From NCBI RefSeq assembly GCF_000189635.1, contig NW_002476571.1, forward strand, positions 1 to 64,000: a stretch of DNA of 64,000 nucleotides, in the 5' to 3' direction. The position numbers and the translations under genes are program-made. How positions within the stretch are numbered: position 1 is the stretch's first letter; each line of letters starts with the position of its first letter. Origin of the DNA: Tetrahymena thermophila SB210 (lineage: Eukaryota; Ciliophora; Oligohymenophorea; Hymenostomatida; Tetrahymenidae). Under the pieces are notes generated by a model that worked only from the letters and a program-made list of their open reading frames with translations, searched no databases and was not told where the DNA came from. Below are positions 19,787 through 27,322 of the stretch, piece by piece.

Positions 19787-22700
19787 CTAAAACCAAGTGT
19801 CAAATTATAGAAATTAGTGAAATTTGCTAAAGCAGAACCTAAACACTATGCTGCTTCATTGCCAATTTTATTGGAACTTTTTAAATATCGAAGAAAAATT
19901 TCAAAATTAATCAATTAGTTAGAAGGAAAAATTGAAGAAAAATATGAAATAATAAGAAATTAATTAATTATAAAAGCTAAAGTTTAAAATCAAAGAATGA
20001 GTTAAATTAACAAAGAAAGAAAGAATAAACACAAGTAAAGTAAAAAAAAGAAAATTAAATCAAATAAAAAGATTTTTCATTAACTTTTAGATTTATATTG
20101 TTTTAAATTAATTTTAATATTAAAAATTTCACAATTAAAAACTAATAAACTGTTTTTACCTAAGATAAAGTGTCAAATTTGATAAATTAGAGCAATTTTT
20201 TAAAGCAGAACTTAAGCATGATGCACCTTCGTCACCAATTTTATTGCCACTTTTTAAATATTAAATAAAAAATATATTATTAAATAGTTAATTAATTACA
20301 AGGAAAAATAAAGAAAAATTGAAATAATATGAAATTAATTAGTAGTAAAAATAAAGTTGAAAATGAAATAAAGAGATAAATTAACAACAAAAGAAAGAAA
20401 AAAAATACAAGCAGGATAAAATATGAAACATAAATCAAATAAAAAGTTAATAAATAAATTAAAAGATTATCAGTATTATCTTATTTTAAATTCATTTATC
20501 TATTATTAAATATCACATTCTTAAACAAATAAACTATTAATACCTAAGATGAAGTATCATAGTTTAGAGATTAGGGCAATTTTTTAAAGAAAAACCTAAG
20601 CTTGATGCACCAATTGCACCAATTTAATTGACACTTTTTAAATATTTAACAACAATAATATAATTAATTAATTAGTTTGTATATTTGTTTGTCCGTTTGA
20701 AAGAAAAATATTAATAATATAAAATTAATTAATTAGCAATAAAAGTATAAGTTATAAGCAAATTTAAAAAAGACTTAAATTAAAAAGAAAGAAATAATAA
20801 AAGCAGAATAATAAAAGAAAAAAGTAAAAAAGTAATAAATAAAAAGAGTTATATTATTTTAAATTTATTTTTATATTAAAAATTATCTTAATTCAATACA
20901 AATAAACAGCTATTACATAAGATAAAGTGCTAATTTTGAGAGATTAGTGCAATTTGCTAAAGAAGAACCTAAGCATGTTGCACCTTCGTCACCAATTTAA
21001 TTATTGCTTTTTAAATATTGATGAAAAAATATTTAATAAATTAGTTAATGAAGAAAAATATAAAACAATAAGAAATAAATTATTTAGTATTAAAGTAAAA
21101 GTTGAAAATAAACGAAAAATAAATTAAATTTACAAAGAAAGAAGTAGAAAAAGACAAACAGAATAAAAAAAATAAAAAAAAGCTGATAAATAATTAAATA
21201 AAAAGATTTATATTTTAAAAATATCACAATCAACAACAAATAAACTGTTTTTACCTAAAATCAATTGTCAAATTTGAGAGATTATGGCAATTTATTAAAG
21301 CAGAACCTAAGCCTGATGCGCCAATTGCGCCAATTTAATTTTCACTTTTAAAATACAGAAGAAAAAAATAAATTAAAATGTTAGTTTGATGCAAAAATAG
21401 AAGACATTTATGAAAATAAAAAATTAATTAATAATTTTAGCAGTTGAAAATGAAAAAATGAGTTTAGTTAACAAAGAAAGAAAGAAAAAAAACAACGAGT
21501 ATAAAACAAAAATAAATCAAATAAAAAATATATTAAATCCTAACATAACTGGCTAAATCTCATTTTTCTTACCTAATTTTATTAAAAATGTTTATTACAT
21601 TTTTTTTGATAAAATTAGGTAGGAAAAATCAGGTTGAGTTAGCGATTATATAATTTATTATATTAAAAAGCTTATTAATAAATTAAAAGAGTTAGCTGTA
21701 TTGTTTTAAATTAATTTTAATATTAAAAAAGTCACAATCCAAAACAAATAAATTGTTTTTACCTAAGAATAAGTGTCAATCTTTAGAGATTAGGGATATT
21801 TGCAAAAGCTGAACTTAAGCCTGATATACCTTCATTACCAATTTAATTTTAACTTTTTTAAATATTGAAGAAAATGTTAGAACTTATTAGTTATAAGAAA
21901 AAATGAAGAAAAATATGAAATAATAAGAAATTAATTATTTAATTATAAAAGCCAAACTTGAAAATGAAAAAAAAGTTTAATTAACTAATAAAAAAAATAC
22001 AAGCAAAAAAATAAATTAAAAAAAAGCTAATAAATAAATAAAAGATTTCTTTTGTTTTATTCATTTTTATATTAAAAAATATCACAATTCAAAAGAAATA
22101 AATTGCTTTTACTAAAGATAAATTGACAAACTTGAGAGATTTGTGCAATATTCTAAACCTAAACCTAAACCTGATGCACCAATGGCACCAATATTATTGC
22201 GACTTTTTAAATATAGAAGAATAAAAAAATTAATAATTAGTTTGAAAGAAAAAATAGGAATTAATAAAGAAATTAATAATTAATTATGAAAGTAAAAATT
22301 AAAAAATAATTTAAATTAACAAAAAAGAAAAAAAAAAAACATAATCAAAACAAACAAAAATAAAAATAAGCCAAATAAAAGCTAATAAAAAAAAGAGTTA
22401 TATTATTTTAAATTTATTTGTATATTAAAAAATATCGCAATCCAAAACAAATAAAGAGTTATTACTGAAGATAAATTGCCAAATTTTAAAGATTAGAACA
22501 ATTTGCTAAAGCAGAGCCTAAACCCGATGCACCCTCGTCACCAATTTTATTGCCACTTTTTAAATATTCAAGAAAAAATATTTAATAAATTAGTTTTTTA
22601 GAAGGAAAAAATGATAGAAAAATATCAAATAGTAAGAAATGAATTAATTAATAATTAAAGGAAGTGTTGAATATAAAAAATAAGTTAAATTAACGAATAA

Positions 22701-25700
22701 AGAAACAAAAAAATACAAGTAGAATAAAAAAAGAAATAAATCAAATAAAAAGCTAATAAAAAAAAAAATTTATTGTTATAAATTAATTTTTCTGTTAAAA
22801 AATATCAAAATCCAAAATAAATAAACTGTTTTTACCTTAAATCAAGTTTTAAATTTGAGAGATTAGTGCAATTTGCTAAAGTAGAACCTAAGCCTGATGC
22901 ATCTTTGTCACCAATTAAATTGTAGCTTTTTAAGTATTCAAGGGAAAAAAAATTAATTAATTTGTTAGTTAGTTAGTTAGTTAGTTAGTTAGAGGGTTAA
23001 TATGATGTAAACATAAGAAATAATAAGAAATTAATGAATAATAAAAATAAAAGTTCAAAATGAATAAATTTATCAAATTAAAAAAGAAAAAATGAATAAA
23101 TAGAAAGCAGAATAAAAAAAAAAAAGAAATTAAATAAAAACTAATTAAAAGAATTAGTTATATTGTTTAATAATTTGTTTTTAGATTTAAAAAATTACAA
23201 TATAAAACAATTAAACTGTTTTTACCTAAGATCAAGTGTTAAATTCGAGAGATTAGTGCAATTTGCTAAAGCAGAACCTAAGTCTGGCACACAATTATTA
23301 CCAATTTTATTGTTACTTTTTAATTATTGAAAAAAAAACATAAAATTAATTAGTTAATAGAGGGAAAAAATGAGGATAAAATATTAAATAATAGGTTATA
23401 AATTAATTACTGATAATATAAATAGTTGAAAATAAAAATGAGTTAATTAACAAAGAAAAAAAGAAATAAAACAGAAAAAATAAAATAAAAAGGCTAATAA
23501 ATTAAAAGAGTTATATTGTTTTATTCATTTTTTTATTTAATTCAAAACAAATAAACTTTATTTACATAAAATAAAGTGCCAAATTTGAGAGATTAGCGCA
23601 ATTTGCTAAAGCAGTAACTAAGCTTATTGAACCAATTTCACCAATTTTATTTTCACTTTTTGATAATAAAGAAAACATATATTATTAATTTATAAGTTAA
23701 TAGTGGAAAAAATGAAAAAAATTTATGAAATTAAAAGAAATGAATGAATTATTAATTAATACAAGTAAAATTTGTAAATAATAAAAATATGTTAAATTAG
23801 CAAGGAAAGAAATTAATCGCAAGCACAATAAAAAAGAAAAATAAATAAATAAAATAAAAAGCAAATAATTAAAATAAAAGAATTATATTTTTTTAAATTC
23901 ATTTTTATATTAAAAAATATCATAATCCAAAAAAAAAAACTATTTTTACTAAAGATTAAGTGTCAAATTTGAGATATTATTGCAAGTTGCTATAGCAAAA
24001 GCTAAGCTTTTTGCCCCAATTGCACCAATTTTATTGATACTTTTTAAATATTGAAGAAAAAAAATATAATTAATTGATTGTTAGTTAGAAAGAAACATTA
24101 AAGAAAAAATATGAAATAATAAGTTATGAATTAATTAATAATAAAATTAAAAGTTAAAAATGTAAAAATGAGTTAAATTAACAAAGAAACAAGAAAAAAA
24201 AAAACACAAGCAGAAAATAAAAAAAAAGAAAAATAAATAAATAAATAAATAAATAAATAAACAAAAAAAATAAAATTACTTTAAAATTTATTTTAAATTA
24301 AAAAATATCATAATCCAAAACAAATAAATGTTGTTTTACCTTAAATCAAGTTTCAAATTAGAGAGATTTGTGCAATTTGAAAAAGCAGAACTTAAGCCTG
24401 ATGCACCTTGATCACCAATTTTGAAGGGCTAAGCGGCTCGAGTGGGCGAGTCGGAGGGTCTTAGCAGTGATATCGGGGGTTCGAATCCTATACCGCCCCC
24501 TTTATTTCGAAAAATTCCATGTAAAAATGTGAATGTTACCAGCGGTCTCCTTGGTAGGAGGGAAGGGCCAAATCTGATAGGAGGTAAAGAGGAGGCCCCA
24601 TTCTGAACAGAAGATCTGGAATACAAATGGGAAGCGAGCATAATGCGTAGTCAAATCATGGAAGATTAGTAGAAATGCCATTAGGGTGTAGGTGACCCTT
24701 CCCTTCTAGTATATTACCCACAATTATATATAAATAAATTGGTATACGTATAATAATAATGTATAAGTAATTATATATAGGGCCCCTATCCCGAGTGCAT
24801 GTAACCATGTGCGAGTATGTATGTATGTATGTATGTATCACCAATTTTATTGCTACTTTTTAAATATTGAAAAAAATAAAAAATTAATTAGTTAGTTGTT
24901 AGGAAAATATGAAGAAAAAATATGAAATAAATTAATAATAAAAACATAAATAAAAATTTAAAAAGTGAGTTAAATTAACATAAAAGAAAAAAAAAATAGA
25001 CAAACAAAATAAAAAAAGAAAAATAAACCAAATAAATAGTTATAAATAAAGAAAATAAAATTACTTTAAATTTTATAAAAAATATCAAAATCCAAAACAA
25101 ATAAATAGTTTTTACATAAGATAAAGTTCAAAATTTGAAAGATTTTTCAAATTTTTTAAAGCAGAGCCTAGGCATGATGCTCCTTTTGCACCAATTTTAT
25201 TGTCACTTTTTAAATATTGAAGAAAAAACAAATAATTAATTAGTTATTTAGAAGGAAAAATAGAAAAAAGAATATGAAATAAAAAGAAATAAATAAATTA
25301 ATTAATAATATAAGTAAAAGTAGAAAATGAAATAAAAGTTAAATTAATAATGAAAGAAAGAAGAAAAAAACTAAATCAAATACAAATCTAACAAATAGAT
25401 TAAAAAAGTTAGCAATATTCTTTTAACTTAATTTTAATAAAAAAAATATATTAAAATCCAAAACACAAAAATAAATTAGCTTTACCTAAAATCAAGTGTC
25501 AAATTAGTGAGATTAATCAAATTTTCTAAAGAAATATCTAAGCCTGATGTACCAAAGACACCAATTTTATTGTGACTTTTAAATAATTATTTAGTTATAA
25601 TCAAAAAATGAAGAAAAATTAAGATGTAATAAGAAATGAATTAATTGATTTTAAAAGTAAAAGTTGGAAATGAAAAAATGAGTTCAATTAACAAAAAAAA

Positions 25701-26659
25701 ATAAAAAATGCAAGCAGGATAAAAAAAGAAAACGAAATTAAATAAAAAGTTAATAAATTAATTAAAAGAGTTATGTTTTTTTAAATTTATTTTAATATTA
25801 AAAAAAACCACAATTCAAAGCTAATAAACTGTTTTTACCTAAGATTAAGTGTCAAATTTAAGAGATTAGTGCAATTTGCTAAAGCAGAAATTAATGCTGA
25901 TGCACCAGTTTCATCAATTTAATTTTAACTTTATATATTGAAGAAAAAATAGAAATTAATTATTTATTTTTCGTTAGGAGGAAAAAATGAAGAAAAAAAA
26001 TTTGAAATAAAAAGAAGTGAATTAATAAAAAATAAAATCAAAAGTTTAAAATGAAAAATTTAGTTAAAATAACAAATAAATAAAAAAGATACATGCAGAA
26101 TAAAAAAGTAAAAAATAATAAATTAAATAAAAAGCTAATAAACTAATTGAAAGAGCTTTTTTGTTTTAAATTCATTTTTATATTCAAAAAATTCGCAATC
26201 TAAATAAATAAACTGTTTTTACCTTAAATAAAGTGCCAAATTTTATAGATTAAGGCAATTTGATAAAGCAGAACCTAAGGCTGATGTACTTTTTCGACCA
26301 ATTTTATTGCCACTTTATCAATTTTAATGAAAAAAAAAATTAATTATTAAGTTAGAAGGAAAAAACGAAGAAAAAATATAAAATAAGAAATGAATTAACT
26401 AATAATAAAATTAAAAGATGAGAATTAAAAAAATGAGTTAAATTAACAAAAGAAAGAAGAAAAAAACACTAGTAAAATATAAAAAAAGGAAAATAAATCA
26501 AATATAATACTATTAAATAAATTAAGAGAGTTGTATTGTTTTAAATTAATTTTTTATTAAAAATGTTACAAAAGATCAAGTTTCAAATTTGTAAGATTAG
26601 TGCAATTAGCTAAGGCTAACCCTAAGCTTGATGCGCCTTCATCAAGAATTTATTTGTGA
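19787..26659 (-). CDS. Tandem array of 18 leucine-rich-repeat exons
   Basis: On the minus strand 18 exons each encode one 30-residue LRR of the ribonuclease-inhibitor/NLR type (core NKIGDEGASGLGSALANC, then TNLSNLTLDL). Exons: 26659-26570, 26312-26223, 25928-25839, 25575-25486, 25205-25116, 24855-24340 (interrupted), 24039-23950, 23655-23566, 23315-23226, 22925-22836, 22555-22466, 22202-22113, 21852-21763, 21344-21255, 21006-20917, 20633-20544, 20249-20160, 19876-19787. Seventeen are exactly 90 nt. The interrupted one is also 90 nt after removing the insertion and one target-site copy. All are flanked by AG and GT in phase 2, so any exon can be skipped without frame loss. The uninterrupted exons I translated are free of TGA. 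Introns of roughly 250-400 nt are homologous to each other, so whole exon-plus-intron units have duplicated. No N- or C-terminal exon was found, so this is an incomplete gene, a pseudogene, or one whose ends I missed. LRRs bind proteins; the partner is unknown. Confidence 0.8.
21541..21648. repeat. Inverted repeat (hairpin) inside an LRR intron
   Basis: Two arms of about 48 bp (21541-21588 and 21601-21648) are imperfect reverse complements. The core ACCTAATTTTAT pairs with ATAAAATTAGGT, and outer CTAAC pairs with GTTAG. The loop is about 12 bases. No other intron of the array carries it, so it looks like an insertion, possibly a tiny MITE-like element, or a strong RNA hairpin in the pre-mRNA. 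Confidence 0.6.
22964..22991. repeat. GTTA tetranucleotide microsatellite
   Basis: Seven tandem GTTA units in an intron of the LRR array, at the place where sister introns carry one or two copies (TTAGTTAG). This suggests local slippage. Confidence 0.85.
24411..24422. repeat. Left target-site duplication of the SINE-like element
   Basis: ATCACCAATTTT, identical to 24837-24848. Neighbouring LRR exons carry TCACCAATTTT once at the same place. Confidence 0.9.
24423..24836 (+). mobile_element. SINE-like retroposon with tRNA-like head
   Basis: A 414-bp insertion that is strikingly GC-rich in its first half. It splits one LRR exon and is flanked by identical 12-bp copies of ATCACCAATTTT. Its head (about 24424-24507) has a perfect pol III B box GGTTCGAATCC and an A-box-like TGGGCGAGTCGG, followed by CCGCCCCC. 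The body is unrelated to anything else in the window. The 3' end is a GTAT tetranucleotide tail. A tRNA-like head, short simple-repeat tail and target duplication are the hallmarks of a SINE mobilised by a LINE. Removing the element plus one target copy (426 bp) restores a 90-nt exon exactly, which proves insertion into a pre-existing unit. It encodes no protein of its own. Whether it is native to the ciliate or came from elsewhere is unknown. Confidence 0.8.
24443..24488 (+). promoter_or_regulatory. Internal pol III promoter (A-box-like and B box)
   Basis: The A-box-like TGGGCGAGTCGG (24443-24454) and canonical B box GGTTCGAATCC (24478-24488) are spaced more closely than in a normal tRNA. 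The head resembles a class II (Ser/Leu-like) tRNA only loosely. Family homology suggests pol III transcription of the SINE; activity here is inference. Confidence 0.6.
24837..24848. repeat. Right target-site duplication of the SINE-like element
   Basis: ATCACCAATTTT, after which the LRR exon resumes with ATTGCTA and its acceptor site. Confidence 0.9.

Positions 26660-27252: not shown

Positions 27253-27322
<70 letters not shown>

Follow-up and report, generated by a model that had tools for sequence, protein, structure and literature searches.

tRNA-derived SINEs with LINE-like 3′ ends form a known class, and R2 has given rise to short internally deleted elements (SIDEs), which are located in 28S genes. 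The non-LTR retrotransposon Tt.REP was reportedly described by Fillingham in 2004. Retroelements with strict site specificity have been described mostly in rRNA genes, snRNA genes and microsatellites (PMC4640811); Tt.REP possesses a conserved 54 bp 3′ tail, with 169 copies kept in the macronucleus, and adjoins LRR units, the authors placing REP in LRR introns (PMC6564038); the repeat annotation of the Cryptocaryon irritans genome gives a figure of 0.10% SINEs (PMC8790277). No described Tetrahymena SINE family was found among the open-licence papers listed, judged by titles and the beginnings of abstracts, and the word SINE is absent from the main texts of PMC6564038 and PMC5182062.

An Insert in a Coding LRR Exon

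The insert considered here lies at 24423–24836 of a 64 kb stretch of Tetrahymena thermophila DNA (the window, i.e., the whole stretch analysed). It is 414 bp long, ends in (GTAT)n and sits between two 12 bp direct repeats, ATCACCAATTTT being present at both 24411–24422 and 24837–24848, as the first-pass annotation had described. Its GC content is 0.423, compared with 0.215 for the window, in agreement with the claim that its composition is far from that of the host. The annotated features are as follows.

19787–26312, minus strand: host LRR gene region, with 15 other 90 nt exons without TGA and with AG/GT borders
24340–24855, minus strand: interrupted 90 nt LRR exon, 516 nt including the insert, with TGA in frame after 67 codons
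24411–24422, plus strand: left target-site duplication ATCACCAATTTT (minus-strand sense AAAATTGGTGAT, exon nt 8–19)
24423–24836, plus strand: SINE copy, full-length, antisense to the LRR gene
24435–24445, plus strand: A-box-like stretch GGCTCGAGTGG, imperfect against the consensus
24475–24479, plus strand: G5 tract, element positions 53–57, candidate elimination-boundary signal
24478–24488, plus strand: B box GGTTCGAATCC; 42 of the 43 genome matches agree fully in the surrounding 28 nt
24793–24818, plus strand: 3′ module GAGTGCATGTAACCATGTGCGAGTAT, common to REP-type 3′ ends (21 fixed letters, variable loop)
24815–24838, plus strand: (GTAT)n tail, the last AT of which overlaps the beginning of the target duplication
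24837–24848, plus strand: right target-site duplication

Joining of the flanks by script, with removal of the element and one target copy, restores a 90 nt LRR exon, as had been proposed; the exon is in phase 2 on both sides, encodes SNKIGDQGASGLSSAFSNCTNLSNLKLDL, and is preceded by ...aaaaag and followed by gtaaaaca. Along 19787–26312, the same script found 15 further 90 nt LRR exons on the minus strand; it required the IG motif, so the repeats near 25839 and 26570, which lack this motif and show no obvious defect by eye, were not counted, and the LRR array in the window comprises 18 repeats in all. A perfect (TAGT)17.5 repeat is located upstream of the LRR gene, at 27253–27322.

The SINE copy of the window is antisense to the host gene. 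Since a read-through of the interrupted exon in the host-gene frame meets TGA 67 codons in, this exon is unusable as it is, barring skipping or splicing-out of the insert. In-frame exonisation of the window copy was also considered and rejected: the insertion adds 426 nt, a multiple of three, but carries the in-frame TGA.

A Young Family with Many Copies

Loci fetched from the genome assembly (101 Mb) are designated here by L-numbers. A genome search with the element gave at least 42 matches (40 of the 52 candidates being scored), and a 28 nt pattern of the element head, with up to three mismatches allowed, was found at 43 places genome-wide (42 without mismatch and one with three) and nowhere for the reversed control, so the element that the first-pass annotation had proposed for the window is not an isolated sequence. 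All 43 heads were fetched. Full-length copies number 37, one of them (L037) with an assembly gap; L040–L044 retain only the first 81–106 bp of the element, and L045 is an old relative (81%). Only the 3′ end was seen at five further places, comprising the 5′-truncated copies L036 and L038, which have target duplications, and the 3′ ends L039, L058 and L084, which have no LRR exon on the left.

The family is young, because the mean difference among 35 aligned full copies (all except L037, with its assembly gap, and L007, which the head pattern had missed) is only 0.7% and the maximum 1.8%. The element is short (414 bp) and dispersed in many near-identical copies, and target-site duplications together with a simple 3′ tail are present in 37 of the 37 full copies, the tail repeat ranging from 8 to 80 nt among them. 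The genome copies, the duplications and the rejoined exon support the earlier identification of a SINE-type retroposon within a coding exon.

Six informative positions in the 35 aligned copies are found in mixed combinations (columns 13 and 160, e.g., show each of the four possible pairs), which hints at recombination or gene conversion among copies. The locus L028 (500–3400) contains two SINE copies sharing a duplication and four added A, in units that are 1447 bp apart and have 1429 identical positions; the repeat unit was probably duplicated after insertion, which provides evidence for unequal exchange in LRR arrays.

One Fixed Target Site

All 43 heads are located in LRR exons, in a single orientation and at the same codons. 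The left half-exon beside the head was scored by script in 42 cases, with 51–76 of 76 nt identical and a shuffled mean of 26.3, and the remaining head, L007, missed by the half-exon script, has an LRR half-exon on the left by eye. The SINE 3′ ends seen, 42 of 42, run into the other LRR half-exon; in L036, what is left of the exon contains a further interruption, a REP-type remnant. The target site corresponds to exon nt 8–20, the NKIGD codons. Target duplications of 11–14 nt accompany 37 of the 37 full copies, with a mean of 12.84, while pairing the flanks of different copies gave a mean of 9.22 and, as the highest of 200 permutations, 9.95; the duplicated bases vary with the exon (e.g., ATGACC, ATCCCG, TGCACC, ATAGCC, ATCATT).

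The dinucleotide AT is present at the putative nick in 35 of 43 occupied sites (without the diverged L045 and the second L028 copy, which belongs to a duplicate unit) and in 148 of 303 unoccupied exons of the fetched loci that passed the frame and motif filter, with p = 6e-5, a nominal value, as the exons of one gene are related. A strict pattern of the target region occurs at 1564 places in the genome and at none in the control, so targets are plentiful and yet make up a minute share of the 101 Mb. The exon is a fixed target rather than an accident, a point missed by the first-pass annotation: 43 of 43 heads, as well as 32 of 32 fetched REP-type ends considered below, are at the LRR exon site. 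This suggests that the gene family serves as a landing pad for the SINE.

An Apparently Macronuclear Assembly

Two translated TERT segments from the assembly, one of 102 and one of 135 residues, are identical throughout to PDB 6d6v chain A, which is the T. thermophila protein. C4A2 telomeres were found at five of the 14 contig ends looked at. Contigs C91 (1.87 Mb) and C60 (1.60 Mb) have them at both ends and C40 at one, and the window's own contig, C9, has no telomere at either end. The assembly looks macronuclear, because two contigs are telomere-ended on both sides and a single match to RVT_1 was found in 101 Mb. The first-pass annotation had considered an element in a coding exon surprising unless the sequence were micronuclear; this proviso appears not to hold, since the telomere-bounded C91 carries the copy L014 (C91:165375–165795), and the family is not limited to the micronucleus, i.e., absent from the macronucleus.

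Promoter Boxes and the Question of tRNA Ancestry

The A-box and B-box calls in the SINE head were made by comparison with the consensus sequences of the two boxes. The B box GGTTCGAATCC matches the consensus exactly, and the A box GGCTCGAGTGG is imperfect, with one base too many. ARAGORN detected no tRNA in the 64 kb window, and Rfam none in 24300–24950, even at E-values up to 10; the head folds as two hairpins, not more stable than shuffles (z −0.13). A tRNA origin was rejected on these three grounds. Hence, of the earlier description of the element as tRNA-like with A and B boxes, only the B box stands, the A box being imperfect, and the proposed tRNA ancestry finds no support.

Across the 35 aligned copies, conservation of the B-box stretch does not significantly exceed that of the remaining element (no rare changes, 1.33 expected), and purifying selection on this stretch was discarded as an argument. 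TTTT is absent within the element, and a run of at least four T begins 6–22 nt past the tail in 36 of the 36 copies measured. The internal B box would direct pol III transcription of the SINE.

A 3′ Module Common to the SINE and REP-Type Ends

The last 26 nt of the SINE, GAGTGCATGTAACCATGTGCGAGTAT, are part of a module found at 151 places in the genome and at none in the control. The module followed by up to 30 nt and CCAATNTNATT gave 104 matches, again with none in the control, and the related form TATTCTGAG...GAGTATT is present at 111 places; the REP-type tails (TTCTA)n, (TTCCA)n and (TTCAA)n are among the matches listed. The SINE has its 3′ end module in common with some 110 other elements whose tails resemble (TTCTA)n. 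The distinct REP-type ends in the fetched loci, 32 of 32 (30 analysed by script and two by eye), enter the LRR exon at the same point and reach its splice border. Matching duplications on both sides are present in four REP-type copies, L050, L060 (with a rare variant), L069 and L086; L055, a fifth copy flagged by the script, was judged not to be one. A count by eye gives about 53 nt for the conserved stretch, which begins with TTTAAG and reaches the tail.

This length, the copy number and the LRR association suggest that the (TTCTA)n-type ends are REP 3′ ends, in which case the REP joint would lie in the LRR exon, not in the intron. If REP is the partner of the SINE, its 3′ end is predicted as ...TATTCTGAGTGCAT..ATGTGCGAGTAT(TTCTA)n. 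Folding of four tails gave a 3′ hairpin in all of them, without a clear advantage over shuffled sequences (z 0.48, −1.56, −0.51 and −1.23). A conserved 3′ hairpin was dropped as evidence, and its covariation is not claimed, because the fold has no clear advantage over the shuffles and the stem hardly varies among the matches listed. A pattern search for a common REP 5′ end returned one match only, and this candidate was abandoned too.

The single RVT_1 match in the 101 Mb assembly is on contig C134, where a LINE kept in the macronuclear assembly was observed on the minus strand (L047:3609–8025; G000:C134:182108–186524). It has two stop-to-stop open frames under the ciliate code, one of 540 aa with a weak match to a CCCH finger and one of 971 aa matching RVT_1 (1.4e-29) and, just under the cut-off, an endonuclease. 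Its 9 kb locus contains no REP-type or SINE 3′ module, and, with no shared tail there, this LINE was rejected as an autonomous macronuclear partner.

At L042, L067 and L069, the SINE head or another 5′ sequence is joined to the same 200 bp REP-type 3′ part. Unequal target copies suggest that these joints were made by deletion between two insertions. For L042, a SINE/REP template-switch chimera was considered and rejected: the left and right target copies differ (ATCACCAAATTAA versus ATCACCAATTTAA), so a deletion joining two insertions is likelier.

Proposed Mechanism and Rival Explanations

We consider it highly probable that the element is a young site-specific SINE, the pol III RNA of which is mobilised by the machinery of a REP-type LINE via the shared 3′ module. 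The scheme builds on features directly visible in the copies (the fixed site and orientation, the matching duplications, the variation in tail length, the 5′-truncated copies with duplications, the shared 3′ module and the common REP-type site), and the pol III transcription, the mobilisation by REP, the nicking steps and the exon skipping are its conjectural parts. The internal B box would probably direct pol III synthesis of an RNA copy, whose 3′ module would allow recognition by the machinery of a REP-type LINE that has this module too. An endonuclease would nick the coding strand of the 90 nt LRR exon after ...AAATTGGTGAT (NKIGD codons), and the exposed 3′ end would prime reverse transcription from the (GTAT)n tail, perhaps aided by pairing of the tail AU with the target. 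A second nick 11–14 nt away would give rise to the target duplications, and early arrest of reverse transcription to the 5′-truncated copies. The pol III transcript would terminate in target sequence, at the T-run past the tail, which could help it to find the next target. Target-primed reverse transcription fits the fixed site, the duplications, the AT-joined tails, the 5′ truncation and the A-rich bases at the 5′ joint; one to four extra bases, mostly A, are present at this joint in 15 of 36 copies (L035 and L055 are the same copy, counted once). LRR exons would suit as targets, because they are numerous and a 90 nt exon between phase-2 introns could be skipped without a frame shift.

A different origin, which we regard as unlikely, would make the element an internally deleted REP, comparable to the R2 SIDEs, with the head representing the REP 5′ end instead of a pol III unit of its own. 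The sharing of the 3′ module agrees with such an origin, and the heads followed by non-SINE sequence in L040–L044 could be REP 5′ ends; however, the sequences beyond these heads are unlike one another, L067 and L069 have another sequence, (A)nCTTTCC, at the REP-type exon joint, albeit with unequal target copies, and only members of the SINE family were matched among the 40 candidates scored. The position of the 43 heads at one point of the 90 nt exon speaks against wide insertion with survival in LRR exons only, the other copies being eliminated from the macronucleus or purged. LRR genes are redundant, and lost copies would go unseen, since the search covered the macronuclear assembly only, but no head is located in LRR introns, which are likely more tolerant, the nick sequence is biased within the exons themselves (35/43 versus 148/303), and the duplications cover the same codons; such differential survival seems very improbable as the source of the pattern.

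Exchange between LRR repeat units, whether by unequal crossing over or by gene conversion, as the means of spread in place of retrotransposition, fits the L028 pair, which lies in a duplicated unit with 1429 of 1447 aligned positions identical, and the six informative positions occur in mixed combinations, as recombination would give. Otherwise, this explanation is largely refuted, and we give it hardly any credence: the duplications agree better within a copy than when permuted (12.84 versus 9.22), the tails range from 8 to 80 nt, 5′ truncations are accompanied by duplications, and 15 of 36 copies have extra, mostly A, bases at the 5′ joint. The chance of an assembly chimera, against which the first-pass annotation had cautioned, is negligible; it is already refuted by the 37 full copies, which are spread over many contigs and have individual flanks and duplications, and, because the genome contains 43 heads of the element, 37 of them full-length, the insert is not an assembly accident.

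A Candidate DNA-Elimination Boundary

The M element is bounded by A5G5 tracts 45–50 bp outside the deletion, with the G5 facing it (PMC4780704, PMC6547420), and a Lia3-type boundary includes an A5G5 tract and an inverted copy on the other side (PMC4780704). In the head-only loci L040–L043, the element is cut off after positions 106, 102, 106 and 101, which puts the breaks 49, 45, 49 and 44 bp past the G5 tract (element positions 53–57), and L044, unlike these four, breaks at position 81. The tract of the SINE is a G5 without A5, and the opposite C tract was found in one of the four loci only, L041, with a C6 run 48 bp beyond the joint. Runs of C5 or longer are rare, with one in the 64 kb window and 0.19 per kb across the fetched loci; telomeres and the C5 present in the SINE head inflate the latter value. 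The fit of the head-only breaks to the A5G5 boundary rule is suggestive, and by analogy the G5 tract may position DNA-elimination boundaries.

A tentative extension, which we hold to be rather unlikely, is that the SINE is adapted to both ciliate genomes, with the skippable exon as a landing pad that makes it tolerable in the expressed genome and the G5 tract halting elimination 44–49 bp further on, thus sparing the upstream exon. If so, the DNA eliminated beside the SINE would be germline-limited, e.g., REP bodies, and REP and the SINE would jointly drive the turnover of LRR exons.

Comparison with Known Systems

The element resembles tRNA-derived SINEs in its size, B box, short tail repeat, target duplications and a 3′ end probably shared with a LINE-like element, and differs from them in that no tRNA is detectable and that it has a strict target in a coding exon. 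Like R2 SIDEs, it is non-autonomous and site-specific, but no source of its body was found among the 40 genome-search candidates scored. With R1, R2, Tx1 and Utopia (PMC4640811), it has in common one fixed site in a multicopy gene family; in contrast to them, its target is a protein-coding exon and it is non-autonomous. With a repeated protein-coding exon as the aim of a SINE, a new type of target would be added to those known.

Both the SINE and Tt.REP (PMC6564038) show a close tie to the LRR genes with 90 bp exons. The published Tt.REP has a 54 bp tail and 169 macronuclear copies, compared with the 111 matches to the probable core, TATTCTGAG...GAGTATT, found here, and the paper assigns it to LRR introns, whereas the joint of the probable REP ends observed here is inside the exon (PMC6564038). 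The SINE differs from Tt.REP in its 414 bp length and in having (GTAT)n rather than (TTCTA)n. Sequence-specific insertion into the exon would explain the mechanistically open tie between REP and the expanding LRR genes with 90 bp exons, and would make this tie testable.
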